Shown piece after piece: positions 23,700-55,215 of a DNA stretch of 64,000 bases. How positions within the stretch are numbered: position 1 is the first letter of the stretch; each line of letters begins with the position of its first letter. The stretch is from NCBI GenBank assembly GCA_028824295.1, contig JAPPED010000007.1, positions 62,001-126,000 on the forward strand. The letters run 5' to 3'. Under the pieces are notes generated by a model. The model was not told where the DNA came from, ran no database searches, and saw only the letters and a list, made by a program, of their open reading frames with translations. A program made the position numbers and the translations under genes. The stretch is from Rhodospirillales bacterium (lineage in GTDB: Bacteria > Pseudomonadota > Alphaproteobacteria > TMED109).

Positions 23700-23773
23700 G
23701 CTGACCCCCTAACGTTTTTCCCGTCGCCCTGCCCAGTCGGCAAGACTGATGGCGTTGCCCCGAGTTTCTTCAG

Positions 23774-25093: not shown

Positions 25094-25101
25094 GATGCTT
25101 C

Positions 25102-25785
25102 CTAATACGAATCGGCGTGATCGACATGAAAGTGGTACAGCCTCCGCGCCGAACCGAAACGCCGGAAGCGGTCAAGGTCCCGCTCCATCCCGGCTCGGGA
25201 GAGGAGATCCTGAAGACGCGAACGGTGCTTCGGGGTCATTTCCTTCTCGACGCAGTCGGCACCCAAGCTTGCCGCAGAGCCGCCGACATAGATCACTGCT
25301 TCGTAAATGGAGTCGCCGAGATCGTTCCCCGCATCCCCACAGATGACCAGATTTCCAGACTGCGCCATGAATCCGCTCATATGGCCGGTTTTTCCGCCTA
25401 CGACGATGTCGATGCCCTTCATCGAAATCCCGCAGCGAGGTCCGGCATTGCCCTCGATAACCAGCATGCCGCCGTGACCAGAGGCGCCGGCACTCTGTGA
25501 CGCGTTGCCCCGGATACGGACGATGCCGGACATCATGTTCTCGGCCACCCCCGTCCCGCAGTGTCCGTCGACGGTGATTGCGGCGTGCTGGTTCATGCCG
25601 GCACAGTAGTACCCCACGTGGCCATCGATCTGGACCTGAACAGGCCCCGTCAGGCCGGCGGCCACCGCATGCGCCCCCTTGGGATCGGTGACGCGCCAGG
25701 CCGGCACCGACCCGTCGTCCGGAGCCCCACGCAGCTGCTCGTTCAGTTCACGAACGCTCGTGAGCGACAGGCTCACCGTATTCAT
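25102..25785 (-). CDS. mgsB: N-methylglutamate synthase subunit B (GXGXG domain protein)
   Basis: This 227-residue protein matches the GXGXG beta-helix domain at the C-terminus of glutamate synthase, here as a free subunit (GlxC/MgsB). The repeated right-handed helix turns are visible in GTGVAENMMSGIVRIRGNAS, GGMLVIEGNAGPRCGISMKG and NLVICGDAGNDLGDSIYEAV. It probably holds the FMN subunit and the amidotransferase subunit together. Its start overlaps the end of mgsA by four bases and its stop is 8 bases before mgsC, so subunit stoichiometry is likely kept by translational coupling. Confidence 0.87.
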   Translation of the reverse strand: MNTVSLSLTSVRELNEQLRGAPDDGSVPAWRVTDPKGAHAVAAGLTGPVQVQIDGHVGYYCAGMNQHAAITVDGHCGTGVAENMMSGIVRIRGNASQSAGASGHGGMLVIEGNAGPRCGISMKGIDIVVGGKTGHMSGFMAQSGNLVICGDAGNDLGDSIYEAVIYVGGSAASLGADCVEKEMTPKHRSRLQDLLSRAGMERDLDRFRRFGSARRLYHFHVDHADSY

Positions 25786-26690
25786 GCGCTGTGCCCCAGC
25801 GTCCAGTCGTACACCACCTGGGGTTCCGGCTCCCAGATTCTCGCGTCGTCGACGCCGGGCAGGTCCGCGAGCGACCGGAACTCAGAGGCCATGGCCACCC
25901 AGTCGCCGGTTTCCGCCAGCACCGCCGGCTTGCAGGAAAATCCGTCTCGAAGCACGGCGAAACCAGTGCGCGTGCCGGCCGCAAAGGTAAAGAAGCCGTC
26001 GAGGTCGTGAAGGCCGGCTTCCATCGCTTCCTTGAGGTCGGCTCCCTGCTGCAGCCGGTAGGCGAAATAGCGCGCCGCTACTTCGGTATCGTTATCGGTC
26101 TCGAACCGCATGCCTCGCCGGGCCAGCCAACCGCGCAACCGATTGTGGTTGCTGAGCGATCCGTTGTGCACCAGGCAAACATCTTCGTCCGCGATGAACG
26201 GATGCGCGTGCGCCGTGGTGACGTCACTTTCCGTCGCCATCCGCGTGTGCCCGATCGCGTGCGTCCCGGCCATGTCTGCAAGGCCGAAACGCGTCACGAT
26301 CTCGTCAGCGCTGCCCTTGTCCTTGAAGACCGCAATGGACTTGCCGTACCCGACGAGACGAATGTCCGGACTGATGTCGGTCAGCCGACGGGTAACGGTG
26401 GACACATCCTGGTCAGCGTCGAGTAGCGCATGGTTTCCCTTGACGACGACATTGACCTCGGTCTCGAGTTCCCCGGACAGGCCCTTCGCCACGTCCTGCC
26501 ACGGAAACCCCGCGTCGGGATGAAACAACGTCACCCTGCACTGGAAGCCGTTCGGCACGTCCTGATACACGGCGATTCCAGCGCTGTCGGGGCCTCGCTC
26601 CCCCATACCCGCGAGCATGGTCGCGAAATGGCTCCCAAGGCGGTCTCGGAGCGCCGGGTTCTTGAGAAAAAGGCCTACGATTCCACACAT
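25782..26690 (-). CDS. mgsA: N-methylglutamate synthase subunit A (class II glutamine amidotransferase-like)
   Basis: This 302-residue protein is the N-terminal-nucleophile amidotransferase domain of glutamate synthase as a free subunit (GlxB/MgsA). The mature N-terminus would be Cys2 in MCGIVGLFL, and GERGPDSAGIAVY, HTRMATESDVTTAHAHPF and CLVHNGSLSNHNRLR are typical of the class. The start at 26690 is fixed by the MCG motif; upstream in-frame residues are not conserved. It is the first gene of the mgsA-mgsB-mgsC-gmaS run. It likely releases methylamine from gamma-glutamylmethylamide and channels it to MgsC. Confidence 0.88.
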   Translation of the reverse strand: MCGIVGLFLKNPALRDRLGSHFATMLAGMGERGPDSAGIAVYQDVPNGFQCRVTLFHPDAGFPWQDVAKGLSGELETEVNVVVKGNHALLDADQDVSTVTRRLTDISPDIRLVGYGKSIAVFKDKGSADEIVTRFGLADMAGTHAIGHTRMATESDVTTAHAHPFIADEDVCLVHNGSLSNHNRLRGWLARRGMRFETDNDTEVAARYFAYRLQQGADLKEAMEAGLHDLDGFFTFAAGTRTGFAVLRDGFSCKPAVLAETGDWVAMASEFRSLADLPGVDDARIWEPEPQVVYDWTLGHSA

Positions 26691-32665: not shown

Positions 32666-33778
32666 TCAATCAGCCGTCAAGCTTGCCTGCCGAACCGAGT
32701 CTGGCCAGTGCCGTGCGACGTTGTCGGGATAGCTGCGTGCAAAGTAATTCCATAGCTGCTCGCCGTAGGTGCAGGGATGGTGCCTGCTCTCCATGTCGCC
32801 GACGCCCGCCTCGGTTTCGTCGCGCTGGGCCATGAAGCCCGCACCAGCGTGACGCGGACTGCGGGCGACCGCCTCTGCGAAACGCGGATGCAGGTCGAGC
32901 GGATCGAGTCGCATGTCCAGCGACGGGCCATGGAAATAGCCGGCCGAGAGCCGCGGTTCTCGGGTAACGACCCGGTGCGGGGTGGCGACAAAGTAGTTGC
33001 CGGTGATGGCCTGGAGGATCTCACCGAGATTGACCACCAGGGAGTCCGGTATCACCGGCACCGGGATCCAGTCCCCGTCGGCGTTCTCGACCTCAAGGCC
33101 CGGGATCGTCCCGGGCGCGAGGATGGTCATGAAACCGGTATCGTGATGGGCGTTGACGCCGAATTGGTCCGGGGGCGTCTCCGGGTAGCTGATCAGCTTG
33201 GTCAGCGACATTCGCTCGGTTCCGAACACATCGTCGAAATGGTTTTCGGCGAGTCCCAGACTGAGGGCGAGGAGACGCAACAGGTCGTCCGCCAGCAACG
33301 CCATTTCGTCGAACCAGCGTTCCAACGCCGGCCTGAATCCCGGCGTCAGCTCTTCCGGCGGCCACTGGTTCGGCCCCAGCAGCCGCAGGTAGTGGGGTTC
33401 CGCATCAGGGGGCCGGGCCGGATGATCGGTCCACAGGTCGATCTGCTCCCGGATGTCGGGCCGGTTGTTGGTGGATTCGCTGCCGACCGGCTCCCAGCCG
33501 CGGAAATGACGCGAATTGCGCTTGTCGATGCTGCGTTTGTCAGCTTCGGATAGGGAGAAGAAGCGGGCCGCGTGCCCGAAGACGTCGCGGATCACTCCGG
33601 GCGCGATGCCATGACGCGTGACGATCACGAAACCGACCTGGTGGCTGATCTCGCCGAGTCGCTGCGCGAGCGCGCGCCGGGCCGCAGGACCGTCGGTCCG
33701 AACGCCGATATCGACGACCGGCACCGCCGTGAATGCGCCGGTGTTGACAGGAATGGGTGCGGATGTGGCGCGGCTCAT
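32666..33778 (-). CDS. Isopenicillin N synthase family Fe(II)/2-oxoglutarate dioxygenase
   Basis: This 370-residue protein has the N-terminal DIOX_N region (VPVVDIGVRTDG, VGFVIVTRHGI) and a C-terminal jelly-roll domain. The latter contains VNAHHDTGFMTIL (His and Asp ligands), FVATPHRVV (His ligand) and TREPRLSAGYFHG with the Arg-x-Ser 2-oxoglutarate motif. The start at 33778 is chosen because upstream in-frame sequence looks non-coding. The Arg-x-Ser motif points to a 2-oxoglutarate oxygenase rather than true isopenicillin N synthase. It is the first gene of a minus-strand pair with the hydrolase. Confidence 0.85.
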   Translation of the reverse strand: MSRATSAPIPVNTGAFTAVPVVDIGVRTDGPAARRALAQRLGEISHQVGFVIVTRHGIAPGVIRDVFGHAARFFSLSEADKRSIDKRNSRHFRGWEPVGSESTNNRPDIREQIDLWTDHPARPPDAEPHYLRLLGPNQWPPEELTPGFRPALERWFDEMALLADDLLRLLALSLGLAENHFDDVFGTERMSLTKLISYPETPPDQFGVNAHHDTGFMTILAPGTIPGLEVENADGDWIPVPVIPDSLVVNLGEILQAITGNYFVATPHRVVTREPRLSAGYFHGPSLDMRLDPLDLHPRFAEAVARSPRHAGAGFMAQRDETEAGVGDMESRHHPCTYGEQLWNYFARSYPDNVARHWPDSVRQASLTAD

Positions 33779-34113: not shown

Positions 34114-35136
34114 ATGATCGAACCTGGAACCGAGATCGACCCATGGCGCGATCGGGCACTGCAGCTCGATGCCAGTGCCAATCAGATCATGGTCGGGCAG
34201 CAGCGGGCCGTACGCCTGTTGCTGCTCGCGACCTTTGCACGCGGCCATGTCCTGCTCGAAGGGGACGTGGGCGTGGGCAAGACGACGCTCCTCCAGACCC
34301 TCGCTCGCGGAATCGGCGGTGCATTCGAGCGCATCGAAGGCACCGTCGACCTGATGCCGAGCGATCTCCTTTACTACACCTACGTCACCCAGGACGGCCA
34401 GCCACGCGTCGAAGCCGGTCCGCTGCTCAAGCATGGCCCCGACCTCTCCATCTTCTTCTTCAACGAGATCAACCGGGCCCGGCCGCAGGTTCACTCGCTC
34501 ATGCTTCGAGCGATGGCGGAGCGCCACGTGAACGCCTTCAACACCGAGCACCAGTTTCCCCACCTGCAGGTCTTCGCCGATCGCAACCGCGTCGAGCGCG
34601 AAGAGACGTTCGAGATCCCGGCAGCCGTGCGCGACCGCTTCTTCATGGAAATCACCATCGAGATGCCGGATGACCCGGCGCTGCTCCGTGATCTCATGGT
34701 CGACACCCGGTACCACGACGTGGGCGCGCTGATCAACGAGATGGAGCCGGCAACCGTACCGTTTCACGAGCTCAACGACGTGGCCGCGCGCATCCAAGCG
34801 TCGGTCGGAACGTCCGAGACGCTGCTGCGCTATGCGCTCGACCTCTGCGCCGCGACCCGCAACCCGGCGGCGTTCGGCATCGAGCTTGCGGGCGTGACCG
34901 CTGCCGAACTCGTCCAGGCAGGGGCGAGTCCCCGCGGCATGAGCATGCTGCTGCGGGCGGCTCGGGTAGCCGCGTGGCTGGCCGGACGGTCGGAGGTCGT
35001 CCCTGAAGACATTCACACGGTGTTCGAACCGGCGATCGCGCACCGCATCTTCTTCAATCCGATTTACGAGATGCGCCGGTCGGAGATCGCGGGACCGTTC
35101 ACGTCGGCAATCCTGGAAGCCGTCGCGTCGCCATGA
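34114..35136 (+). CDS. mxaR: MoxR-type AAA+ ATPase, MxaR-like
   Basis: This 340-residue MoxR-family ATPase has Walker A in LEGDVGVGKTTLL (about residue 50), Walker B in IFFFNEINRARP, sensor residues in AAVRDRFFMEI and a C-terminal lid. MoxR ATPases work with vWA proteins to assemble or insert metal into enzymes; in methylotrophs MxaR with MxaS, A, C, K and L is needed for active calcium-methanol dehydrogenase. It heads a tight operon of six genes in exactly that order, with its stop overlapping the next start. The symbol rests on family plus gene order; no mxaF, J, G or I is in the window. Confidence 0.8.
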   Translation: MIEPGTEIDPWRDRALQLDASANQIMVGQQRAVRLLLLATFARGHVLLEGDVGVGKTTLLQTLARGIGGAFERIEGTVDLMPSDLLYYTYVTQDGQPRVEAGPLLKHGPDLSIFFFNEINRARPQVHSLMLRAMAERHVNAFNTEHQFPHLQVFADRNRVEREETFEIPAAVRDRFFMEITIEMPDDPALLRDLMVDTRYHDVGALINEMEPATVPFHELNDVAARIQASVGTSETLLRYALDLCAATRNPAAFGIELAGVTAAELVQAGASPRGMSMLLRAARVAAWLAGRSEVVPEDIHTVFEPAIAHRIFFNPIYEMRRSEIAGPFTSAILEAVASP

Positions 35137-36026
35137 ACGAAACGCACGGGCCGTTTCCCGGACAGGCTCCGAATGGACGTTCGCCAGCCCCTGCCGAGGT
35201 GGTCTACCGCTTGAACCGTCGCGCGCGAAGCATCCGTCCGGGCATGCACCCGGGAACGGAGACCGGCGGCGGCCTGGAGCCGATGGTCCGAACGACACTG
35301 CTGGATGGGCGCGATCCGCGACGTCTGGATCTGCTGGCAAGCTCGCGGGATCCGCTCAGGCGGCTGTTGGTGCGACGCTATCGCCAGCGCGCATCGATCC
35401 GCGTCTACGTGCTTGCGGATCTGTCCGCTTCGCTCGGATTCCGAGGTCGGGGGGATCGAATCAAGACCCTGGCCTCGCTCGTGTCGGCACTCGGTTACTC
35501 CGCCGGGAGCGCAGGTGACGCCTTCGCGTTCATCGGCTGCGACGTGCATGTGCGCCGAGAGTTCTTGCTGCCGCCGACGAGGATGTCGGGCGCCTACCTC
35601 GACCTGGCCGATCGGCTGCGCGATTGCATCCCGTGCGGGCAAGGGTCCGACGGTCTGCTGGAGGCGATCCCGCTGATCGGAAACCGTCGTGCGCTCGTCT
35701 TCCTGGTCTCCGACTTTCATTTCCCGCTCGCTCTGCTCGAGTCCGTCCTCACCGGCGTGGCGCGCCACCAGGTCGTTCCGGTCGTTCTTGAGGACAGCCG
35801 CGAATCGGAGCCATCGCCACGGGTGGGGCTCGTGCGGGTTCTGGATCCGGAGACCGGGGAGGAGCGGACGCTCTTGATGCGCCCTTCGTTGCGGCATCGG
35901 CTCCGGGCCCAGGCGGAGCGGAGAAGGACGGCGGTGTTCGACTGCCTCGCTGCGCACGGCGCCCCGCCGTTGGTGCTCACCGACCGATTCGATGTCGACC
36001 GCGTCAATCGTTACTTCAGTCCGTAG
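35133..36026 (+). CDS. mxaS: DUF58 family protein, MxaS-like
   Basis: This 297-residue DUF58 protein starts inside the last codons of the MoxR gene (4-base overlap). The conserved core appears in YRQRASIRVYVLADLSASLG, a degenerate vWA metal site (DLSAS), and in RRALVFLVSDFHFP. DUF58 proteins act with MoxR ATPases; MxaS holds this place in methanol dehydrogenase maturation clusters. No membrane segment is seen, so it is probably cytoplasmic. The assignment depends on its position between the MoxR and MxaA-like genes. Confidence 0.75.
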   Translation: MNETHGPFPGQAPNGRSPAPAEVVYRLNRRARSIRPGMHPGTETGGGLEPMVRTTLLDGRDPRRLDLLASSRDPLRRLLVRRYRQRASIRVYVLADLSASLGFRGRGDRIKTLASLVSALGYSAGSAGDAFAFIGCDVHVRREFLLPPTRMSGAYLDLADRLRDCIPCGQGSDGLLEAIPLIGNRRALVFLVSDFHFPLALLESVLTGVARHQVVPVVLEDSRESEPSPRVGLVRVLDPETGEERTLLMRPSLRHRLRAQAERRRTAVFDCLAAHGAPPLVLTDRFDVDRVNRYFSP

Positions 36027-36356
36027 CGCCATGCTGCCGATCCTTGACCCGATCCCAGCGGCCGGCGTTGCGGGTTCTTGCTCCAAGGCAGACATTTCAT
36101 GCGCTCGGTGAGCGCCGGGGCTCCGACCAGCACTCGTGTTCAGGCTGGGCAGCGTCTTGCCGCAACGCGAGGCGGGGTCATCGGCGAGAGCTCCGGTACG
36201 CTCGGGGGCACGGGCTCCCCCCTGGCCCCTGCGCCAATTCGATCCGAGTGGCAGCCGAGGCATGCCCTCGCGAAATTCATCTCCGGCCGGACTGCGTCCG
36301 ACAAATCCAGCGGCAGCCGGCGAATCGAACTTCCCAGAGCCCGTCCGGTCAGCCCG

Positions 36357-37292
36357 GTGCCGAACTTGCGCGGATCCATCTGCCTGAGGCTTGCGGCCGT
36401 GCTGACGGGGTTGCTGTTGACCGTGTCACCGCCCGTGGATGCCGCCGTCGAGCATCTGTCGGTGAAGACCCCGCGGTCGTTCGGGTACGTGATCGGCGAC
36501 ACGATCGAGCACGAGGTGTCACTGGCGCTGGATCCCGGATTCGAGCTGGACCTCCAGTCCATCCCGGAACCGGGGCGTGTGAGCCGTTGGCTGTCCCTCA
36601 ATGACGTGGCGCACGAGGGCAGGAACCGGGACGGCACCTCCCGCCACACCATTCGCCTCCGCTTCCAGGTGGTGAATGCGGCCCAGGGCGTGATTGGGGC
36701 CGGCACGCCGCCGCTGAGTCTTCGAATCGTCGGACCCGAGGATGATTTCCCGGTGGTGGTTCCCGGTTGGGCTTTCACGATTTCCCCGATGCTGGCCCCG
36801 GAGAACAGGCCACCCGGGCGCCTGCCGGATCTGCGGCCGGCTCTGCTCCCCGAACCTGCTTCGACCACGATGCGCACGGCACGCGTCACTGCGCTGGGCG
36901 TGCTGGTGCTTGGTCTGGCCGCGCTGATCGCCCGGCGGCATCTGGCAGGGCAATTCGGAATGCGGACGCACGGGCACTTCGAGCGTGCCTACCGCCGGAT
37001 CCAGCACCGGATGAAGGGACCCGGAGCGCCGGTGGCGTACGCGGACGCGCTGGTCGAGATGCACGCTGCATTCAATGCCACCGCAGGCCGGGCCGTGTTC
37101 AAGCATGATCTCGAGCGTTTCTTCGTCGAGCACCCCCGCTTCAAACCGCTTCAAGCGCCGATCTCGGCACTGTTCGCGGAGTCGGGAGCGGTGTTCTATG
37201 GCAGCGGCACGGACTCCACCACGGACTCCCGGAGCCTGGACAGCGTGCGCGACCTGTGCCGGGCGTGCCGCGACGTGGAGCGCATCCCGTGA
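36357..37292 (+). CDS. mxaA: MxaA-like membrane-anchored protein
   Basis: The protein has a likely signal segment (LRLAAVLTGLLLTVSPPVDA), a periplasmic domain of about 170 residues and a membrane helix (VTALGVLVLGLAALIARRHL), then a cytoplasmic tail. This is the layout of MxaA, implicated in calcium incorporation into methanol dehydrogenase. The start is uncertain: GTG at 36357 gives 311 residues and places the signal peptide at the N-terminus. ATG 36099 would add 86 residues of low-complexity sequence. Its stop overlaps the next gene's GTG. Similarity is judged mainly by layout and order. Confidence 0.68.
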   Translation: MPNLRGSICLRLAAVLTGLLLTVSPPVDAAVEHLSVKTPRSFGYVIGDTIEHEVSLALDPGFELDLQSIPEPGRVSRWLSLNDVAHEGRNRDGTSRHTIRLRFQVVNAAQGVIGAGTPPLSLRIVGPEDDFPVVVPGWAFTISPMLAPENRPPGRLPDLRPALLPEPASTTMRTARVTALGVLVLGLAALIARRHLAGQFGMRTHGHFERAYRRIQHRMKGPGAPVAYADALVEMHAAFNATAGRAVFKHDLERFFVEHPRFKPLQAPISALFAESGAVFYGSGTDSTTDSRSLDSVRDLCRACRDVERIP

Positions 37293-38308
37293 GCATGTTC
37301 GGGATCACGCTTGGAGTGGTGCACGGCTGGCCGCTGGCGCTCCTTCCGCTCGCGGTGCTCCCTTTCTTCCGGTCAGTCACATCGGCCGTGCCGTACTCGT
37401 GGCTTGGGCTGCTGCTGCCCGATCCCGTCTCCCGCTGGACCGACCATCTCCTCCGCGCGATCGGAAGCCTCGCGATCATTTCGCTGGTGCTCGCGGCAAG
37501 CGGCTTGCACCGGTCCGCATACGAGGTCGAGCGGCTCGGCCACGGGGCGCACATGGTGCTGCTGGTCGACCGGAGCACCAGCATGGACCAGCCGTTTGCA
37601 CGCAGGACCGCCGCAAGCGCGACGAACCAAGGGAGATACCGGCCCAAAGGGGAGGTAGCGCGCGAACTCCTGTCAAAGTTCGTCGCCGAACGGCGCAACG
37701 ACCTGTTCGGGATGGTCGTGTTCAGCTCCTTTCCGATCCCGGTGCTTCGACCCACCGATCGCCACGCGGTCGTGCACGCGTCGATCGCCGCGGGCGACGT
37801 GGGACGCGGGCTCGCCGAAACCAACATCGGGGCCGCGCTGGAGCAGGCGCTCGATTACTTCGAGGGCGAGCCGTATACCGGGGCGCGGATCGTGGTGCTG
37901 GTCTCCGACGGCGCAGGGGAGATTTCACAAACCCCGAGGCTCCGCATCGCCCATCGGATGCAGCGGTTGCGTGCATCCCTGTACTGGATCTACATCCGAT
38001 CCGAACGGGGGCCGACGATCCTTGCCACGTCCGAACCGGGCGATGACGCCGCGGCCTTGCGGATGACGCCGGAGCGTGCGCTGCACAAGTTCTTCTCCAG
38101 CCTGGGCAGCTCGTACCGGGCCTATACGGCCGAGAACCCGGAGGATCTCGAGAGGGCGATTGCCGACGTGAACCGCCTGCAGAACCTTCCCGTGCGTTAC
38201 CTGGAGACCATCGCCAGGCGGGATCTCACGTCCGCGTGCCTTGCAGCCGCCCTGGCGTGCCTCGTCCTGCTGGTCGGGGCGAAACTCTCGGAACGGTCGG
38301 CATGGTAG
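37289..38308 (+). CDS. mxaC: von Willebrand factor A domain protein, MxaC-like
   Basis: This protein (about 339 residues) has an N-terminal hydrophobic region (WPLALLPLAVLPFF and LLRAIGSLAIISLVLAASGL), a periplasmic vWA domain with the metal site DRSTSMD, and a C-terminal helix (TSACLAAALACLVLLVGA). MxaC in methanol dehydrogenase clusters has this shape. The GTG start overlaps the mxaA-like stop (GTGA), and its end overlaps the mxaK-like start by 7 bases. Aerotolerance BatA/BatB proteins are similar in plan, but the surrounding genes fit mxa better. Confidence 0.73.
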   Translation: MSMFGITLGVVHGWPLALLPLAVLPFFRSVTSAVPYSWLGLLLPDPVSRWTDHLLRAIGSLAIISLVLAASGLHRSAYEVERLGHGAHMVLLVDRSTSMDQPFARRTAASATNQGRYRPKGEVARELLSKFVAERRNDLFGMVVFSSFPIPVLRPTDRHAVVHASIAAGDVGRGLAETNIGAALEQALDYFEGEPYTGARIVVLVSDGAGEISQTPRLRIAHRMQRLRASLYWIYIRSERGPTILATSEPGDDAAALRMTPERALHKFFSSLGSSYRAYTAENPEDLERAIADVNRLQNLPVRYLETIARRDLTSACLAAALACLVLLVGAKLSERSAW

Positions 38309-38910
38309 GACCGAACCGCAGGCGGGCGGGCGCAGGCGACCCGGGAGCGCCTCCCCACAGGCGAGCCGGCCTCGCTGGCGGGAGCCCCTGGTGGTACCTC
38401 GCGGTTCTCCTGCCGCTGGCGGGAGCCCTCGCCCTCGATCTGCACGGTCTGCTGGAAGACCGGCGAGTCAACCGGGCGCTGGCCCAGAATCAGGTAGCGT
38501 TCGTCGCGGAACGCGACACTCTCCGCGGTTCGCTCGCCCGCGCCTACCGACTGCATGCAGGCGGGGAGCTCAGCGCGGCGGTTGCCGCCTACGGCTCAGT
38601 CGCGCTGGACGAGGAGCCGGAATTACGCGCAGTGCAACTCTTCAATCTCGCGAACCTCTACCTGGAGCAGGCGGTGGAGCTTGAGCGGGCCGACGAAATG
38701 CAGTCCTCGGTGTCGCTCGTGGAGCTCGCGAAGCAAAACTACCGCGAGATTCTTGCCCGCGACCCCCACCACTGGGACGCCCGTCACAACCTGTCCCGCG
38801 CGCTTGAAATGCTCCCGGACATTGCCGCGGTCGACTACGAGAACGAGCGCAACCCTGAACGCAGCCCGCGGGCGCGACAAGCGGCCCGAACCTACGAGGG
38901 TTTGCCGTGA
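38302..38910 (+). CDS. mxaK: MxaK-like small membrane protein
   Basis: This 202-residue protein has a basic, Arg/Gly-rich N-terminus, one membrane helix (WWYLAVLLPLAGALALDLHG) and a helical, TPR-like periplasmic part (LAVAAYGSVALDEEPELRA-type repeats, LVELAKQNYREILARDPHHW). MxaK is a poorly conserved protein at this position in mxa clusters. It overlaps both neighbours (7 bases upstream, 4 downstream), so it is clearly part of the operon. Family identity rests on order and size, not on strong motifs. Confidence 0.65.
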   Translation: MVGPNRRRAGAGDPGAPPHRRAGLAGGSPWWYLAVLLPLAGALALDLHGLLEDRRVNRALAQNQVAFVAERDTLRGSLARAYRLHAGGELSAAVAAYGSVALDEEPELRAVQLFNLANLYLEQAVELERADEMQSSVSLVELAKQNYREILARDPHHWDARHNLSRALEMLPDIAAVDYENERNPERSPRARQAARTYEGLP

Positions 38911-39953
38911 GCTTCGTGGGTTCGTCGGGTCGCCGCAGCCCCCTGGCGAGCGGCCAGCTCGGGTTGCTGGCGTTGGCCTCGGCGCTGGCGGTGACCGCTC
39001 TTGGCAGACCGGTGCTGCCTCTGTCATCCGACGTGTTCCGACACCTGATCGTGTTCGACATCACCCAGAGCATGAATGTCGGCGATGCTGTGCCCTTGGA
39101 CGACGGGCCAACGACGCGTCTGGAGCATGCCAAGGCCGCGGTGCTCGAAGCGACGGCGGCTCTCCCCTGCGGCTCCGAGATCGGGCTGGCCCTGTTCACC
39201 GGTCACCGGGCCTTTCTCGTACTCGCGCCGGTTGAGGTGTGTGCGAACTACGCCGACATTTCCAACGTCGTGGACGCGGTGGACTGGCGCATGGCCTGGG
39301 CAGCCCGCAGCGAAATCGCCAAAGGAGTCCACTCCGGGCTCACGATCGCCGAGGCGCTCGGTTCAACCACCTCGCTGGTGTTCGTCACCGACGGACACGA
39401 GGCCCCGCCCCTGCATGCTGAACTTCGACCGCGATTCACGGGCGATCCCGGCTCGGTCCGCGGATTGCTCGCCGGTGTGGGCGGCTCGGTACCGCTGGCG
39501 ATCCCCAAACTTGACCCGCAGGGCCGGAATCTCGGGCATTGGGAAGCGGACGAGGTCATTCAGGTGGACGAACTCTCGCTCGGACGACCGACGAGCGTTC
39601 CGGAGAGCTACGCGGGGGAAGAGATCGGAGACGTGGAGGCTCGCATCGCTTCGGGCACCGAACATCTTTCGATGCTGCGTGAAAGCTACCTCCGATCCCT
39701 GGCGAACGAGCTTCGGCTGCACTATCGGCGAGTGGGAGACACCGGCGATCTGAAGCAGGCACTTCAGCATCCCGAGTTGGCCAATGACACCGAGGTGTCG
39801 AGAAACCTTCGGCCCCTGCTCGCCGGCATGGCCGCCCTGCTCCTGGCCGGGAGCTACCTCCTGCCGGGGAGATGGCGGCGTGGTCGCGCCGCCGGGGCGT
39901 CCCGTTCCGAACAGGGAGTCCAGGTCCCCGCCGGAGAGGCGGACCGTGCCTAG
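38907..39953 (+). CDS. mxaL: von Willebrand factor A domain protein, MxaL-like
   Basis: This 348-residue protein has an N-terminal membrane helix (LGLLALASALAVTALG), a vWA domain beginning HLIVFDITQSMNVGD, where D-x-T-x-S is a MIDAS motif, and a C-terminal membrane helix (LLAGMAALLLAGSYLLP). ITQSMNV is close to what I remember of MxaL proteins. Its GTG start overlaps the previous stop. It ends the six-gene operon; 181 bases separate it from the convergent mgdD gene. Confidence 0.73.
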   Translation: MSFVGSSGRRSPLASGQLGLLALASALAVTALGRPVLPLSSDVFRHLIVFDITQSMNVGDAVPLDDGPTTRLEHAKAAVLEATAALPCGSEIGLALFTGHRAFLVLAPVEVCANYADISNVVDAVDWRMAWAARSEIAKGVHSGLTIAEALGSTTSLVFVTDGHEAPPLHAELRPRFTGDPGSVRGLLAGVGGSVPLAIPKLDPQGRNLGHWEADEVIQVDELSLGRPTSVPESYAGEEIGDVEARIASGTEHLSMLRESYLRSLANELRLHYRRVGDTGDLKQALQHPELANDTEVSRNLRPLLAGMAALLLAGSYLLPGRWRRGRAAGASRSEQGVQVPAGEADRA

Positions 39954-40134: not shown

Positions 40135-40710
40135 CTATTCCGACACATGCTCGACCGACAGCTCCACCGCGTGCCGGAAGGAGCGCGCTGACGAACGCGG
40201 GCTCATGAGCAGGAAACTGTCCGCGCCGTCGCGCAGGACAATCACCGAGAGGTGCTCCATCGCGGTGCGCGCCACCCTGTCCTGCGGGAAGACCCGGTCG
40301 TCAAGGTCAAGGGGACAGATGCGTTCCAGCGCCGTGCGAACGCCGACGCCGGTCATCCGCAACATCGCCCAGCTGTCCGACTGATCGGTGACGTAGGCGG
40401 CGGACGCGAGGGCGGCTGAAACGGTTACGGCCGGCCGGTCCGGGTCCGGTGGTGCGAACAGGATGAACACCTGGTCCGGCTGCATGCCAAGGACACGGGC
40501 CGCGTGCCTGTCACCGAGAGTCGAGTCGCCGGTCGCCGGTCGCGCCGCGCCGAAGCCGCGGACGAGCGCAGCGGCGAAGGCCTCGTCGCCGCCCCGCGGG
40601 ACGGCTGCCGAAACGAGCGCCAGATCGGTGACCTCGGCGACGGCGACGGTACCGATCGTGCGCTCGTGGCCATCGAGCGGCGCGCGCGCCGTGAGTTCGC
40701 GGTCAGGCAC
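40135..40710 (-). CDS. mgdD: Sarcosine oxidase gamma subunit family, N-methylglutamate dehydrogenase subunit D
   Basis: This protein of about 191 residues is the small gamma (SoxG) subunit of the heterotetrameric amine dehydrogenase. Typical segments are SAALASAAYVTDQSDSWAMLRM and ALERICPLDLDDRVFPQDRVARTAMEHLSVIVLRD, where the ICPLDL motif is common in SoxG. A GTG at 40710 is the likely start and overlaps the end of mgdC by 8 bases. It is the last gene of the mgdA-B-C-D run and contributes structurally to the complex. It shares a GcvT-like fold but has no known separate activity. Confidence 0.82.
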   Translation of the reverse strand: MPDRELTARAPLDGHERTIGTVAVAEVTDLALVSAAVPRGGDEAFAAALVRGFGAARPATGDSTLGDRHAARVLGMQPDQVFILFAPPDPDRPAVTVSAALASAAYVTDQSDSWAMLRMTGVGVRTALERICPLDLDDRVFPQDRVARTAMEHLSVIVLRDGADSFLLMSPRSSARSFRHAVELSVEHVSE

Positions 40711-43651
40711 GAAGCAGTTCCCCGTCCGGATCGTGGAAATGCGGCGAAACGATCTCGACGTGAACATCGCTGCCCTGCAGCGCGTCCCAGGCCCGGAGGG
40801 TCTCGCCGACGCGGGCGTGCCCTTGCCGGACAAAACCGAGACCGATGGACGTTTCGAGGGTCGGCGAATACGCCACCGAGGAGATCCAGCCCTCGTCATT
40901 CGCCGTGTCGGCCGGCGCGTTGAGCGCCAAGAGGTGTGCACCCGCCGTCAGTTCATCGCCGGAACTGAGCGGTTTGAACCCCATCAGCTCCATCCCGTCG
41001 TCGCGGTTCATCGCCGGCCGTTCAGACAGCACGTTGCCGATACAGTCCTTCCGCTTCGACACCATGCGCTGCAGGCCGAGCATGCGGGCGGTGGTCTGGC
41101 CGTTCAGTTCGTTGCCGGCAGCATGCCCTTTCTCGATGCGCATGACTCCGAGCGCCTCGGTGCCATAGGCAACCGCGTCGAACTCCTCGCCGGCTGCCAT
41201 CAACGCCTCCATCAGGGCTTCGCCGTAACGCGCCGCGACCGCGATCTCATAGGCCAGTTCACCGGAGAAGGAGATGCGGAAGAGCCGGGCCGGGGTACCG
41301 CCGCACACGCTGACCTCGGCACACGCCATGAACGGGAATGCCTCGTTGGAAATGTCGTGTTCCGGATCGACGACCTTCGCCAGCAGCCGGCGCGAATTCG
41401 GGCCGGCAACTGCGTACTGCGCCCACTGTTCAGTCACCGAGATGAGGTGGACGTCCAATCCCGGCCACAGGCACTGGCGGGCGAACTCCATGTTGCGGAA
41501 CACGAGAACCGCGTTCGCCGTCGTCGTCGTCATGACGAAATGGTCCTCGCCGAGACGGGCCGTCGTGCCATCGTCGTAGGCAATGCCGTCTTCACGCAGC
41601 ATCAGCCCGTAGCGCACCTTGCCGACTGCGAGCTTGGCAAAACCGTTGGCATAGATCCGGTTCAGAAACTCGGCGGCGTCACGGCCCTGGATATCGATTT
41701 TGCCCAGGGTCGTGACATCGCAGATGCCGACCGAGCCGCGGGTGCCGGTCACCTCGCGATCAACGGACTGCCGCCAGTGGGTCTCACCTGCCTGCGGGAA
41801 CCATTGGGCGCGCAGCCACATGCCGGCATCGACGAAGACCGCCCCCCGTCCTTCCGCCCAGTCGTGGCTCGGCGTCAGGCGGGTCGGCCGGAAGTCCTTG
41901 CCCCGCGACCGCCCGGCGAAGGCCGCGATCGGCACCGGCGTGTAGGGGGCCCGGAACGCGGTCGTGCCGGTCTCCTGGATGGTGCGGCCGGTCAAACCGG
42001 CCATGATGGCGAGCGCCAAGACGTTCGCCGTCCTGCCCTGGTCGGTCGCCATGCCAAGCGTGGTGTAGCGCTTCAACAGCTCCACCGAGCGGAAGCCCTC
42101 ACGGTGCGCCTGCTCCACGTCCTTCACGGTCACATCGTTCTGCAGATCCAGCCAGGCCCGGCCTCGGCTTTCCCGGACATGCCAGAAGGGTGCGGCCTCG
42201 GTCGCTTCGTCGCTCGCGACCGGCGGCTCGCCCGCGGCAACGGCAAGCCCGAGTTCACCGAGCGCGGCAGCAGCCGCCCGATGTCCGTCGGCGAGAGCGC
42301 CCGCAGTCGTGAAGCCGCCCGCGGCAGCACCGGCGACACTCATGCCGCCGGGGAGCCGGTCGCCGGGGACAAAACTGGCGATCGCGTCACGCCAGACCGG
42401 CCTGGCGCCGTGATGACAGGCGAGATGGACGTTCGGGTTCCAGCCGCCGGCAACTGCGAGGCAGTCCAGCGCGATCCGCTCGCCCGTCGCCAACGTGATC
42501 CCCCTCAGGCCATGACGGCCCCAGGTGCCCACGACCCGGCTGTTCATCCGGATCCTGGCGTCGGCGACGGCCGCGGCCGGATCCGCATCCCGCACGTCGA
42601 TGACGGCAGCGATCGGGACGCCCTTGGCTGAGAGGTCGCCAGCCGTACGCCATCCGTCGTCGTTGTTGGTGAACACCCCGACCCGACGGCCGGTACCCAC
42701 GGCGAACCGGTTGGCGTAGGTACGGACCGCGCCTGCCAGCATGATCCCGGGCCGGTCATTGCCTCCGAACGCAATGGGTCGCTCCGTGGCTCCCGTGCAC
42801 AGGATGGTCCGCCTGGTATAGAGCCGCCACAGGATTTGCCGGGGTTTGCCCATGGCGGCGGCCAAGTGATCGGTCCGACGTTCCAGTGCGCCGTAGACAC
42901 CGTGGTCGTAAGCGCCAATCACCGTGGTTCGCGGCATCAGGCGCACCCTGTCCATGGATGCCAGTTCGCGCACGGCGTCGGCGGCCCAGGCCGCCCCGGG
43001 CCGGCCGTTCACTTCGTGGGACTCGGCGTTCAGCCGGCCACCCATGAGAAAATCCTCGTCGGCAAGGATGATCCGCGCCCCGCTGCGTCCGGCTTCGAGT
43101 GCGGCGGCAAGGCCCGCGGGACCCGCACCGACAATGAGCAGGTCGCAGTGCAGGAAGCCCTTGTCGTAGCCATCCGGGTCGGCCTCGCCCGACAGGCGGC
43201 CGAGCCCGGCAGATGCCCGGATGGCCGGCTCGTAGACCCGCTCCCAGAAAGACCTGGGCCACATGAACGTCTTGTAATAGAAGCCGGCCGAAAGGAAGGG
43301 CGCGAGGAGGTCATTGACCGCCAGCAGATCATGGCGCAGCGAGCCAAGGTAGTTCTGACTGGTGGCCTCCAGCCCGTCGAACAACTCGGCGACGGTCGCC
43401 CGCGTATTTGGCTCCCGGTACGCACCGCTCCGCAATTCGACGAGCGCGTTCGGTTCCTCCGAACCGGCCGAGAACACGCCTCGGGGCCGGTGATACTTGA
43501 AACTCCTGGCCACCAGCCGGACCCCGTTGGCGAGCAGCGCCGAGGCCAGTGTGTCGCCGGGATGTCCCGTCAGGCGCCGGCCGTCGAAGTGAAAGGCCAG
43601 CGTTCGGCCGCGCTCGATCGCGCCACCGTCGAGCCGGAACGCACCGCTCAC
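40703..43651 (-). CDS. mgdC: Sarcosine oxidase alpha subunit family, N-methylglutamate dehydrogenase subunit C
   Basis: This 982-residue protein has the alpha-subunit plan. A ferredoxin-like N-terminus lacks cluster cysteines (about 15-95, GHPGDTLASALLANGV). A dinucleotide-binding flavoprotein part begins LLIVGAGPAGLAAALEA (171-187), with ILCTGATERPIAFGGNDRPG and a second nucleotide site VGVFTNN. A C-terminal aminomethyltransferase domain (about 610-975) carries SVGICDVTTLGKIDIQG, FSGELAYEIAV and GTEALGVMRIEKGH. In this family the last domain passes the methyl-derived C1 unit to tetrahydrofolate. It overlaps mgdB by 4 bases. N-methylglutamate rather than sarcosine is favoured by the mgs/gmaS genes in this window. 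Confidence 0.87.
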   Translation of the reverse strand: MSGAFRLDGGAIERGRTLAFHFDGRRLTGHPGDTLASALLANGVRLVARSFKYHRPRGVFSAGSEEPNALVELRSGAYREPNTRATVAELFDGLEATSQNYLGSLRHDLLAVNDLLAPFLSAGFYYKTFMWPRSFWERVYEPAIRASAGLGRLSGEADPDGYDKGFLHCDLLIVGAGPAGLAAALEAGRSGARIILADEDFLMGGRLNAESHEVNGRPGAAWAADAVRELASMDRVRLMPRTTVIGAYDHGVYGALERRTDHLAAAMGKPRQILWRLYTRRTILCTGATERPIAFGGNDRPGIMLAGAVRTYANRFAVGTGRRVGVFTNNDDGWRTAGDLSAKGVPIAAVIDVRDADPAAAVADARIRMNSRVVGTWGRHGLRGITLATGERIALDCLAVAGGWNPNVHLACHHGARPVWRDAIASFVPGDRLPGGMSVAGAAAGGFTTAGALADGHRAAAAALGELGLAVAAGEPPVASDEATEAAPFWHVRESRGRAWLDLQNDVTVKDVEQAHREGFRSVELLKRYTTLGMATDQGRTANVLALAIMAGLTGRTIQETGTTAFRAPYTPVPIAAFAGRSRGKDFRPTRLTPSHDWAEGRGAVFVDAGMWLRAQWFPQAGETHWRQSVDREVTGTRGSVGICDVTTLGKIDIQGRDAAEFLNRIYANGFAKLAVGKVRYGLMLREDGIAYDDGTTARLGEDHFVMTTTTANAVLVFRNMEFARQCLWPGLDVHLISVTEQWAQYAVAGPNSRRLLAKVVDPEHDISNEAFPFMACAEVSVCGGTPARLFRISFSGELAYEIAVAARYGEALMEALMAAGEEFDAVAYGTEALGVMRIEKGHAAGNELNGQTTARMLGLQRMVSKRKDCIGNVLSERPAMNRDDGMELMGFKPLSSGDELTAGAHLLALNAPADTANDEGWISSVAYSPTLETSIGLGFVRQGHARVGETLRAWDALQGSDVHVEIVSPHFHDPDGELLRA

Positions 43652-43935
43652 CGGTCCCGTCCCCGGGCAAGTGCGACATCGCGCGCCAATTCGACCCCCA
43701 CGATCTCGTGGGTCAGCGTGTTGCGGGTCACGACCAGCCAGGACCGATCGCCGTGTTCGTGAAACCAGAGCTCCCGGTGCTCGCCGGCGGGGTTGTCCCG
43801 GATATGGAGGTAATCGTGGAACAACCGAGCCGCGTTCTCGTCCCCCGGATCGGGCCGGTCGATCAGGCAGGCATCGCCGAGATAGACGAACTCCGCCGCG
43901 TCGCGCGGGCCAAGCAGAGGGTGGTCAATGATCAT
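43648..43935 (-). CDS. mgdB: Sarcosine oxidase delta subunit family, N-methylglutamate dehydrogenase subunit B
   Basis: This 95-residue protein matches SoxD in length and in the segments HDYLHIRDNPAGEHRELWFH and GDRSWLVVTRNTLTHEIVGV. In heterotetrameric sarcosine oxidase the delta subunit binds zinc through cysteines in a C-P-x-C-G motif and a later Cys. Here the start reads MIIDHPLLGPRD and the later segment reads GDRSWLV, so both Cys of the first motif and the late Cys are absent. Loss of the zinc site argues for the N-methylglutamate dehydrogenase branch. It overlaps mgdC by 4 bases. Confidence 0.83.
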   Translation of the reverse strand: MIIDHPLLGPRDAAEFVYLGDACLIDRPDPGDENAARLFHDYLHIRDNPAGEHRELWFHEHGDRSWLVVTRNTLTHEIVGVELARDVALARGRDR

Positions 43936-44092
43936 TCCTTCACCCCGCCGCTCGCCACGGCCTGCGGGCTTCTGCCCTGAGGCCGCTCAGCCATTGGTCC
44001 CGCCCACGTCGAACGCGGCCGCCCGAGTAGCCACCCTCCGGTGAGCAGTCTGGATTGCGACAACGACATGGTCTCTTTCTCTCCCGGCCCGG

Positions 44093-45343
44093 CTAGTGGA
44101 GGTTGGCCTGGGCACCCATGCCCTTCTCGTCGATCACGGCACCGGTCACGAAACGGTCAAGCCGCATCGCCTCCGCCACCCGATGCGGCACGCCGGTCGC
44201 CATCAGGTGGGCGAGGCAGTAGCCGCCCGCCGGGACTGCCTTGAACCCGCCGTAGCACCAGCCGCCGCTGAAAAAGAGGCCTTCGACCGGCGTTCGGTCG
44301 ATGAAGGGCGACCCGTCCATCGACATGTCGACGACACCACCCCACATGCGCAGCACGCGGGCGCGCCCGATCATCGGCATCAGCGCCATGCCGCCCTCGC
44401 AGACATCCTCCACAGTGGGTAAGTTGCCGCGTTGCGCGTAGGTGTTATAGCCGTCGATGTCGCCGCCGAAGACGAGCCCGCCCTTGTCCGATTGGCTGAC
44501 GTAGAAATGCCCGGCGCCAAAGGTGATCACCCCGGGGATCGCCGGTTTCAGCCCTTCGGTCACGCAGGCCTGCAGCACGTGGCTTTCGATCGGTAGCCGC
44601 AATCCCGCGAGGCCCATCACCTGACTGGAGGAACCGGCCACACAGACGGCCACCTTGTCGGCGCTGATCGCCCCGCGGGTGGTCTCGACCCCTCGGCAGG
44701 CCCCGTCACGGATATCGAACCCGGTGACCTCGCAGTTCTGGATCACGTCGACGCCTCGCTGGTCGGCGCCCCGGGCATAGCCCCAAACGACTGCATCGTG
44801 CCGTACCGTGCCGCCGCGCGGCTGCCACAGGCCTCCCTTGATCGGGAAGCGCTCGTTGTCGAAGTCCAGGAAGGGGCACTTCCGCCGGAGGGCCTCGCGG
44901 TCCAGCAGCACCGCGCCCGCTCCGGCCAGGAGCATCGCATTGCCGCGCCGGACAGCCGCATCGCGCTGTGGGTCAGTATGGAACAGGTTGATCAGCCCGC
45001 GCTGCGAAACCATGGCGTTGTAGTTGATGTCCTGTTCCAGGCCCTCCCACAGCTTCATCGACAGTTCGTAGAACGGCTCATTGCCGGGCAGCAGATAGTT
45101 GGAACGGATAATCGTCGTGTTGCGACCCACATTGCCGCTGCCGATCCAGCCTTTCTCCAGCACCGCGATATCGGTCAGCCCGTGGACCGATGCCAGATAG
45201 TAGGCCGTGGCCATGCCGTGTCCGCCCCCGCCCACGATGACCGTGTCGTAGTGCCGCTTCGGGTCCGGCTCGCGCCACACCGGCTTCCAGCCGCGGTTGC
45301 CGGTCAAGCCTTCCTTCAGGATCTGCAGGACGGAATAGCGCAT
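44093..45343 (-). CDS. mgdA: Sarcosine oxidase beta subunit family, N-methylglutamate dehydrogenase subunit A
   Basis: This 416-residue flavoprotein holds the amine-oxidising active site. The start at 45343 gives the family N-terminus MRYSVLQILKEGLTGN and has AGAGGA just upstream; longer in-frame starts would run into the divergent regulator. The FAD motif VIVGGGGHGMATAYYL begins near residue 35, GRNTTIIRSNYLLPGN follows, and H182 in GGTVRHDAV corresponds to the His that carries covalent FMN in heterotetrameric sarcosine oxidase. The C-terminus has FSGGWCYGGFKAVPAGG. It is first in the mgd operon, with 157 bases before mgdB, and is transcribed divergently from a GlxA-type regulator. Confidence 0.88.
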   Translation of the reverse strand: MRYSVLQILKEGLTGNRGWKPVWREPDPKRHYDTVIVGGGGHGMATAYYLASVHGLTDIAVLEKGWIGSGNVGRNTTIIRSNYLLPGNEPFYELSMKLWEGLEQDINYNAMVSQRGLINLFHTDPQRDAAVRRGNAMLLAGAGAVLLDREALRRKCPFLDFDNERFPIKGGLWQPRGGTVRHDAVVWGYARGADQRGVDVIQNCEVTGFDIRDGACRGVETTRGAISADKVAVCVAGSSSQVMGLAGLRLPIESHVLQACVTEGLKPAIPGVITFGAGHFYVSQSDKGGLVFGGDIDGYNTYAQRGNLPTVEDVCEGGMALMPMIGRARVLRMWGGVVDMSMDGSPFIDRTPVEGLFFSGGWCYGGFKAVPAGGYCLAHLMATGVPHRVAEAMRLDRFVTGAVIDEKGMGAQANLH

Positions 45344-45416
45344 GACGTCCTCTGCCAAGACCTGATTGATGCGTCGTTCGCGCCGCCGGTGCTTTCTGAA
45401 AAAGGACGGATCTATT

Positions 45417-46409
45417 ATGATTTCGGACATGCTGGAGTCCCGGTTGGTCAACCGCCGCGTTGCCTTCGTCTTGGTCGAGGGCTTCGCCCTGATGTCCTTC
45501 GCGGCCGTGACCGAGCCCCTGCGCGCGGCCAACCTGCTGGCTGGCAGGCGCATCTACGAACTGTTCCATTTCGCCGCCGGACCGGGAGCCACGAAGACGC
45601 TGAACAGCTCGTCCGCAGCCTCGGTCACGGTCGGTGACCTGCAGGAAACGACGGAAACCTTTGATCTCGCGTTCGTCGTTGCAGGAGGCGACCCGGTCGG
45701 CTTTCGCAGTCCCCGACTGTTCCAGTGGCTAAGGCGACAGGCGCAGCACGGCTGCATGCTGGGAGGTGTGTCCGGCGGACCGGCGATCCTTGCCAGCGCA
45801 GGCGTCATGGACAACCGGCGGATGACGGTTCACTGGGAGCACTATGCCGCCCTCGCCGAGCGTCATCCCGGCCTCCTTCTCGAACGCACCCTCTACGTCG
45901 TCGACCGGGACCGGATGACATGTGCCGGGGGGACGGCTCCGCTGGACATGATGCACGCTCTGATCGCCGAACATCACGGACCGGACTTCGCCCGGAAGGT
46001 CAGTGACTGGTTCATGCACACCGATGTCAGGCCTGCCGGAGGCCCGCAGCGGGCCGGACTGGCGCAGCGCTACGGCACCAACCGTCCCGCCGTTCTGGCC
46101 GCGATCGAGGTCATGGAAAACCACGTTGCGGACCCGCTGCCGCTCACCGTCCTCGCCCAGGTGGTCGGCGTGAGCGTCCGCCAACTGAATCGCCAGTTCA
46201 AGGCCGGGCTGGGCCGCAGTGCCGGGGGGTTCTACCGGGCTCTCCGCCTCGAGAAATCCCGAGAACTGCTGCATCAGACCAGCCTGCCCGTTCTCGAGAT
46301 CGCGATCGCCACGGGCTTTTCCGGCGCGGCACATTTCGCGACCGCCTACCGTCAGCGGTACGGCGCGGCACCGTCACACGATCGCCTGGAAGCGCTGCAC
46401 GGGCACTGA
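45417..46409 (+). CDS. GlxA-type AraC-family transcriptional regulator (DJ-1/PfpI domain)
   Basis: This 330-residue regulator has an N-terminal DJ-1/PfpI-like sensor domain (about 10-175; RRVAFVLVEGFALMSFAAVTEP-like start, VSGGPAILASAGVMD, MTCAGGTAPLDMMHAL). A C-terminal AraC DNA-binding domain follows (about 225-325; LTVLAQVVGVSVRQLNRQFK and VLEIAIATGFSGAAHFATAY). The same architecture controls glycine betaine, carnitine and the rhizobial glx operon. It is divergent from mgdA with only 73 bases between starts, so it most likely controls mgd. ATG 45417 has AAGGA about 10 bases upstream; ATG 45429 is also possible. Confidence 0.88.
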   Translation: MISDMLESRLVNRRVAFVLVEGFALMSFAAVTEPLRAANLLAGRRIYELFHFAAGPGATKTLNSSSAASVTVGDLQETTETFDLAFVVAGGDPVGFRSPRLFQWLRRQAQHGCMLGGVSGGPAILASAGVMDNRRMTVHWEHYAALAERHPGLLLERTLYVVDRDRMTCAGGTAPLDMMHALIAEHHGPDFARKVSDWFMHTDVRPAGGPQRAGLAQRYGTNRPAVLAAIEVMENHVADPLPLTVLAQVVGVSVRQLNRQFKAGLGRSAGGFYRALRLEKSRELLHQTSLPVLEIAIATGFSGAAHFATAYRQRYGAAPSHDRLEALHGH

Positions 46410-53337: not shown

Positions 53338-53384
53338 GGCGGTCTCTTTCTTCGTACCTCGTTGCAGGAGAAGCAGGGCTGGTC

Positions 53385-55150: not shown

Positions 55151-55215
55151 GGCCGATCACTCCTTCCAGGGACCCGAGTGTCTGAGGCGGGAAGCTCAAG
55201 CATCTCCGGGCGGCC

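Follow-up and report, generated by a model that had tools for sequence, protein, structure and literature searches.

What is a complete set of methanol dehydrogenase maturation genes for, when the genes of the dehydrogenase are not beside it? The question is raised by a stretch of 64,000 nucleotides from a Rhodospirillales bacterium (contig JAPPED010000007.1, positions 62,001 to 126,000; here called the window), in which six genes on the plus strand, at positions 34114-39953, have the order mxaR-S-A-C-K-L and none of mxaF, J, G, I or D is next to them. On balance we favour the reading that this operon is the mxaRSACKL maturation machine of a lineage which goes with the rare-earth-dependent methanol dehydrogenase XoxF, and not with the calcium enzyme MxaFI.

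The operon is of the mxaRSACKL type

An earlier reading of this DNA (the original prediction) had recognised the gene order of the mxa maturation genes and had noted that mxaF, J, G and I are not adjacent. Both points hold, the six homologues standing in the order R-S-A-C-K-L on one strand. Judged by sequence comparison, the operon is a genuine and complete mxaRSACKL operon with a MoxR protein of the MxaR family, and is not a Bat operon; this conclusion is drawn from the split in a tree of MoxR proteins together with the identities of the window MoxR to the two kinds (57% versus 34%). In the tree of 54 proteins the 51 Mxa-type rows, the window protein included, are separated with support of 100/100 from three MoxR paralogs that the window's genome also encodes. 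The identities to the mxaFJGIRSACKLDEH operon of Methylobacterium nodulans pMNOD02 are 57% for R, 39% for S, 30% for A, 38% for C and 41% for L, and the window MxaK is 35% identical to that of Caballeronia (E 7e-11). The closest paralogs compared from the window's own genome, those of a Bat-like operon on contig C33, are 34% (MoxR) and 31% (DUF58) identical.

When proteins of plasmid records were searched with the window MoxR, eleven matches were found at 50-58% identity (Azospirillum, Methylobacterium, Caballeronia, Methylocystis and Paracoccus), after which the identity dropped to 36%. Ten of the plasmid regions were fetched, and in eight mxaF, J, G and I are directly upstream of R-S-A-C-K-L; the remaining two, from Caballeronia, have R-S-A-C-K-L alone. 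The Caballeronia plasmid loci L039:11989-17192 and L044 carry mxaRSACKL with no mxaF nearby, and in L039 the genes sit between heavy-metal-efflux and arsenic genes.

XoxF is encoded in the genome and MxaFI is not found

A profile search of the window's genome gave no MxaI (PF02315); the model used detected MxaI in 24 of 49 other genomes, including all 21 with an mxaF-linked operon. The genome does encode seven pyrroloquinoline quinone (PQQ) dehydrogenases of the methanol/ethanol family, one of them below the NCBIfam cut-off, and pqqC is also present; a genome devoid of PQQ dehydrogenases, which the original prediction had named as speaking against it, is therefore not what was found. The enzyme on contig C3 is XoxF, its nearest structures being XoxF 6dam (965 bits) and 6oc5 (897 bits), compared with 629 bits for the best MxaF-type chain, 4tqo. 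Its gene is followed by a cytochrome-type (xoxG-type) and then a solute-binding-type (xoxJ-type) gene, as in xoxFGJ. All seven dehydrogenases have an Asp-x-Asp motif, which we take to be the rare-earth-type motif at the lanthanide-binding place of XoxF. No MxaF-like enzyme was found in the genome, where the PQQ dehydrogenase nearest to MxaF and XoxF is the XoxF.

The two marks of a classical mxa operon, mxaFJGI directly upstream and MxaI in the genome, are thus both missing, and the genome is one with XoxF and without MxaFI. MxaFI encoded elsewhere was rejected as a candidate since neither MxaI nor an MxaF-like enzyme was found, and with it goes the suggestion that the operon may serve an unlinked MxaF. 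Service to an unlinked XoxF, also suggested, is the best supported of the options that had been offered, given the XoxF in the genome and the lineage and co-occurrence described below.

The operon falls in a lineage with the xoxF-linked operons

A species-genome collection was scanned with an MxaR alignment and the best 80 of at least 400 confirmed relatives were kept, a choice which favours rows resembling the window; two of the 80 loci belong to the window's genus. Within 10 kb, 22 of these best 80 loci have mxaF or mxaI and 10 have xoxF; neither is found at 33 loci with 7 kb or more of upstream sequence, and 15 are truncated. In these counts L106 stands under a corrected label. A neighbour was called xoxF at 60% identity or more, and the only dehydrogenase queries were XoxF and Mxa, so that others could be missed in these counts. 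The xoxF-linked loci are from Paraburkholderia, Rhizobacter, Variovorax, Piscinibacter and two betaproteobacterial metagenome-assembled genomes (MAGs), and their xoxF is about 0.5-9 kb from mxaR. Among 385 genomes drawn evenly from the window's class, three have an MxaR-type MoxR (two of these being of the window's genus) and one has MxaI. An S-before-R order in two loci was rejected as an artefact of sorting by the ends of stop-to-stop frames.

Since MxaR alone does not place the window, the main tree was made from the joined R, S, A, C and L proteins of 88 rows. Three sets are seen: a Methylophilaceae-type set (34 rows; Shimodaira-Hasegawa-like approximate likelihood ratio test, SH-aLRT, 100), an mxaF-linked set (29 of 30 such operons, at 100) and a set of 24 rows (99). 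L078 is an mxaF-linked long branch placed near the mxaF-linked set. The 24-row set holds all 10 xoxF-linked loci found, five unlinked, four truncated and five of the window's genus, and none of the 30 mxaF-linked operons. The window's set was recovered again at SH-aLRT 99 in a 37-row tree under a mixture model, in which the window's genus is joined by L099 (Competibacteraceae) and L132 (Thiotrichales) with support of 89. Furthermore, when 28 rows were compared by concatenated identity, the nine nearest were all in the xoxF set. The window operon thus groups with xoxF-linked rather than mxaF-linked operons in both trees, with a p-value of 0.052 in the approximately unbiased test (p-AU) for the contrary. 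Physical linkage to xoxFGJ is absent from the window and present in 10 of the 19 rows of the set outside the genus, so it is not a constant feature.

XoxF and the mxa operon have the same kinship

Co-occurrence was assessed in 18 genomes of the window's lineage, namely 16 of the 24-row set together with L118 and L131, whose genes were too few for inclusion in the tree; L134 and the plasmid rows are outside this sample. XoxF at 64% identity or more is present in 17 of the 18, and MxaI in one (L128, Methyloversatilis). The presence of XoxF is non-specific by itself, as most mxaF-linked genomes also have XoxF, and the presence of MxaI in the mxaF-linked genomes follows from the criterion by which they were labelled.

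At the level of sequence, XoxF and the mxa operon point to the same relatives in other classes. In a tree of XoxF the window's genus groups with the XoxF of the L099 and L132 genomes (97 and 81) and apart from that of the Hyphomicrobium and Rhodopseudomonas genomes. The pairwise distances of XoxF and of mxa are correlated with r 0.87 (n 16, Mantel p 0.0001, species descent not removed), and with r 0.78 in a thinned set of 10.

The operon is shared by five of seven genomes of the genus

Seven genomes of the genus, all drafts, were compared. The operon is in the same place and has the same gene order in five of them, and the ratio of nonsynonymous to synonymous substitution rates (dN/dS) of the six genes is 0.09-0.36 (mxaR 0.09-0.10; mxaA and mxaL 0.23-0.36). 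By these ratios the six genes are under purifying selection, and the shared order and the ratios together exclude a chance arrangement. Four of the five genomes read have all six frames intact. In the fifth, G404, mxaS is split between two reading frames and its two pieces share an overlap (L047:7423-8471), which is either a pseudogene or an assembly fault.

Genes of the operon and their surroundings

The features of the operon and its surroundings are listed in Table 1. The original prediction spoke of six overlapping genes, which is slightly too strong: three of the five junctions do overlap (R/S by 4 nt, C/K by 7 nt and K/L by 4 nt) and A/C nearly abuts with a gap of 2 nt, but S/A does not overlap, its gap being about 50-330 nt according to which start of mxaA is chosen (an alternative in-frame start codon lies further 5', at 36078).

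Table 1. Coordinates in the window of the six operon genes and of neighbouring features.
Feature	Position	Strand	Description	Support
mxaR	34114..35136	+	MoxR-family AAA+ ATPase, 340 aa	Pfam AAA_3 5e-26, AAA_lid_2; MxaR clade 100/100
mxaS	35133..36026	+	DUF58 protein with MIDAS-type DLSAS, 297 aa (260 aa if the start is 35244)	Pfam DUF58 7e-22
mxaA	about 36357..37292	+	anchored protein, 311 aa, start uncertain	M. nodulans MxaA, 30% identity
mxaC	37295..38308	+	membrane-anchored vWA protein, 337 aa, MIDAS DRSTS	Pfam VWA_2 1e-10
mxaK	38302..38910	+	small TPR-like protein, N-terminal hydrophobic segment, 202 aa	weak TPR matches
mxaL	38907..39953	+	membrane-anchored vWA protein, 348 aa, MIDAS DITQS	VWA_2 2e-5, below Pfam cut-off
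2OG-Fe oxygenase gene	32666..33778	-	left flank, divergent	
soxG-, soxA-, soxD-, soxB-like genes	40135..45553	-	right flank, soxGADB/mgd-type	
first glutamine synthetase set	22392..26690		glutamine synthetase III + glutamate-synthase-like (N-methylglutamate-synthase type)	
second glutamine synthetase set	51961..56685		glutamine synthetase III + glutamate-synthase-like (N-methylglutamate-synthase type)	

The residues of the metal ion-dependent adhesion site (MIDAS) are conserved: the D and the last S of the MxaS DxSxS motif are each kept in 92 of 93 aligned rows, the D, S and S of MxaC in 88 of 88, and the D and last S of MxaL in 80 of 80. MxaA, C, K and L all have hydrophobic anchor segments, located at 6-24 and 174-192 in MxaA, close to each end in MxaC and at 33-51 in MxaK. 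An AlphaFold2 model of MxaA (predicted local distance difference test, pLDDT, 80.9; predicted template modelling score, pTM, 0.42) has an N-terminal signal/anchor helix, a beta-sandwich (31-142), a transmembrane helix (about 171-201) and a helical C-terminal domain. Comparison of this fold gave no functional lead, the matches being to generic immunoglobulin-like beta-sandwiches (best Z 8.1, 107 residues aligned, root mean square deviation 2.7) in a comparison that hardly reached the helical C-terminal part.

The operon lies, as had been predicted, between an oxygenase gene (2-oxoglutarate (2OG)-Fe type, left) and mgd genes (soxGADB/mgd-type, right). The wider window is a methylated-amine island with a trimethylamine monooxygenase, a trimethylamine N-oxide (TMAO) demethylase, an ammonium transporter and the two glutamine synthetase sets, which flank the operon region.

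Discussion

The ATPase and lid domains, the MIDAS residues and the anchor segments, taken with the published role of MxaACKL, lead us to read the operon as an AAA+/vWA loading machine; in the available part of PMC6028718, MxaACKL is assigned to calcium insertion in MxaFI. MxaR and MxaS would act from the cytoplasmic side upon a membrane complex of MxaA, MxaC, MxaK and MxaL, and the periplasmic vWA (MIDAS) and beta-sandwich domains of this complex would in turn assist the loading of metal and PQQ into apo-XoxF, which is encoded at another place in the genome together with XoxG and XoxJ. XoxF is probably the client and metal insertion probably the step, and the same strength applies to the topology beyond the hydrophobic segments. 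The more specific idea that this distinct MxaRSACKL branch is a dedicated loader of lanthanide ions (Ln3+), and of PQQ, into apo-XoxF in bacteria lacking a calcium methanol dehydrogenase is a tentative one.

Several observations weigh against a link with XoxF. The operon is on contig C7 and xoxF on contig C3, with no linkage between them, and the operon is located inside a methylated-amine island. A tree in which the window is forced among the mxaF-linked rows is worse by 24 log units, which is only a borderline rejection at the p-AU given above, and the tree of MxaR alone leaves the window's group unplaced. The correlation of XoxF and mxa distances includes species descent, and it is also significant in the mxaF-linked genomes (r 0.57, n 13). 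The L128 genome belongs to the window's lineage and yet has MxaI and no XoxF at the cut-off. Within the genus, G407 has XoxF and is missing the operon (also the mgd-type gene and TMAO demethylase), and G405 has the operon and no XoxF match. According to the available part of a review (PMC11845868), XoxF can do without mxaACKLD and mxaRSEH, and M. extorquens is described in the accessible part of PMC6414531 as lowering the whole mxa cluster when lanthanum (La) is present.

Presence and absence in the genus was dropped as a test of the client, since the contig of G191 stops 74 bases past mgdC, where the operon would begin, G407 is without the operon and the mgd-type and TMAO-demethylase genes alike, and the xox region of G405 looks deleted at a contig end. 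In G405 a 24-residue C-terminal remnant of xoxJ (L187:137-475), at the end of a 6.1-kb contig, adjoins sequence that is about 7 kb away in the window's genome; this suggests either that xoxF and xoxG were lost by deletion or that the region is misassembled.

It is unlikely that the operon matures, instead of XoxF in particular, one or several of the other six PQQ dehydrogenases, such as the C34 enzyme. Such enzymes are there to be served, the C34 gene being beside a cytochrome and a solute-binding-type gene and its enzyme having a similar match in all seven genus genomes, and in G405 the operon seems to be present in the absence of xoxF; to this extent the earlier suggestion of recruitment for another metalloenzyme keeps some weight, though the XoxF option is better supported. 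Beside operons of this mxa lineage the dehydrogenase that recurs is XoxF (with XoxF and Mxa as the only queries), and by eye no dehydrogenase tracks the operon across the seven genus genomes.

Quite unlikely, too, is a leftover of a lost mxaFJGI operon, without a present client and retained as a passenger of the linked methylated-amine island. The lack of MxaI, the absence of the operon from G407 together with island genes, the broken mxaS of G404 and the relaxed dN/dS of A and L would all fit a remnant, but six intact frames in four of five genomes, conserved MIDAS residues, dN/dS well below 1 and a sequence lineage differing from the mxaF-linked one would not.

Maturation of the neighbouring N-methylglutamate/sarcosine-type dehydrogenase of the island is very improbable. 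The two are adjacent in all five genomes with the operon assembled, and both the operon and the mgd-type gene are missing in G407; such joint absence is, however, expected from linkage alone. MgdC was seen at none of the 78 loci outside the genus (among the best 80 of at least 400), and MxaA, C, K and L look membrane-anchored, whereas we take the neighbour to belong to a soluble flavoprotein family.

A Bat-type operon is scarcely credible: the protein kinds are alike and the NCBIfam BatA model weakly touches a vWA protein (25 bits against a cut-off of 380), but Bat operons have the order MoxR-DUF58-BatD/DUF4381-vWA-vWA-TPR, the genome has separate MoxR/DUF58/vWA operons, the best of the MoxR proteins compared from these is the 34% paralog outside the MxaR clade, and the 100/100 grouping with MxaR, on which the original prediction had staked itself, refutes the assignment as far as three outgroup rows reach.

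Other clusters of this general kind were also noted. The Bat-like MoxR-DUF58-x-vWA-vWA-TPR operon lies at the end of contig C33 (L017:4380-10180), and the start of contig C3 (L021:200-2488) has a divergent PQQ dehydrogenase with a cytochrome-type gene; these contig ends have 55 identical bases in common and may be neighbours. At L015:469-11391 a MoxR, large vWA and DUF58 cluster (names partly by eye) is beside a Rieske-type gene and a PQQ dehydrogenase with an odd WDWD motif, and the start of contig C4 (L016:159-5277) has a DUF58-DUF4381-like-vWA-vWA-TPR-BatD-like operon (names by eye) whose MoxR is probably off the contig.

Compared with known systems, the window shares six homologues in the same order and strand with the mxaFJGIRSACKLD(EH) operon of Methylobacterium, Paracoccus and Methylocystis, but mxaF, J, G, I and D are all missing beside it, MxaI was not found in its genome, and its lineage is apart from the 30 mxaF-linked operons. 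Extra mxaRSACKL clusters are described in the Methylophilaceae, including two strains without mxaFJGI (XoxF-only Methylotenera); the available part of the same paper counts MxaRSACKL in a core set with XoxF and notes one extra cluster near xoxFJG, in strain 13 (PMC4109929). Orphan mxaRSACKL in XoxF-only Methylophilaceae is therefore already published, and the window operon is a variant and not a new kind. Those clusters resemble the window in lying away from mxaFJGI in genomes with xoxF; they differ in being betaproteobacterial and of the other sequence group (the 34-row set), the window being from an alphaproteobacterial MAG genus. Closer are the xoxFGJ-linked operons of the Burkholderiales (Paraburkholderia L113, L134 and L140, Rhizobacter L096, L123 and L124, Variovorax L130, Piscinibacter L106), which are of the window's sequence group and, as in the window's genome, have no MxaI in any of the seven genomes tested of the eight; in these xoxF is about 0.5-9 kb from mxaR, whereas the xoxF of the window's genome is on a contig other than that of the operon. 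In XoxF-only Sphaerotilus, mxa fragments are read as remnants in the accessible part of PMC13300288.

No description of an XoxF-linked mxaRSACKL sequence lineage was found in the literature searched, which left most subscription journals outside, nor in the available parts of PMC7104280, PMC5606694, PMC3615186, PMC4543880, PMC12482762, PMC9291206, PMC12997753, PMC8999231, PMC6908837, PMC4109929, PMC13300288, PMC6028718, PMC11845868 and PMC6414531.

The finding bears on the open question of how XoxF gets its lanthanide. It also advises caution: finding mxaRSACKL in a genome is no safe sign that methanol is oxidised by the calcium enzyme, nor that MxaFI was once present and has been lost. The fact that a separate mxaRSACKL branch is beside xoxF in 10 loci, in genomes almost always without MxaI, suggests that the mxa genes matter for XoxF there, contrary to the available part of the review (PMC11845868). 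If the operon is indeed a loader of XoxF, this would contradict the statement that XoxF needs no such machinery.

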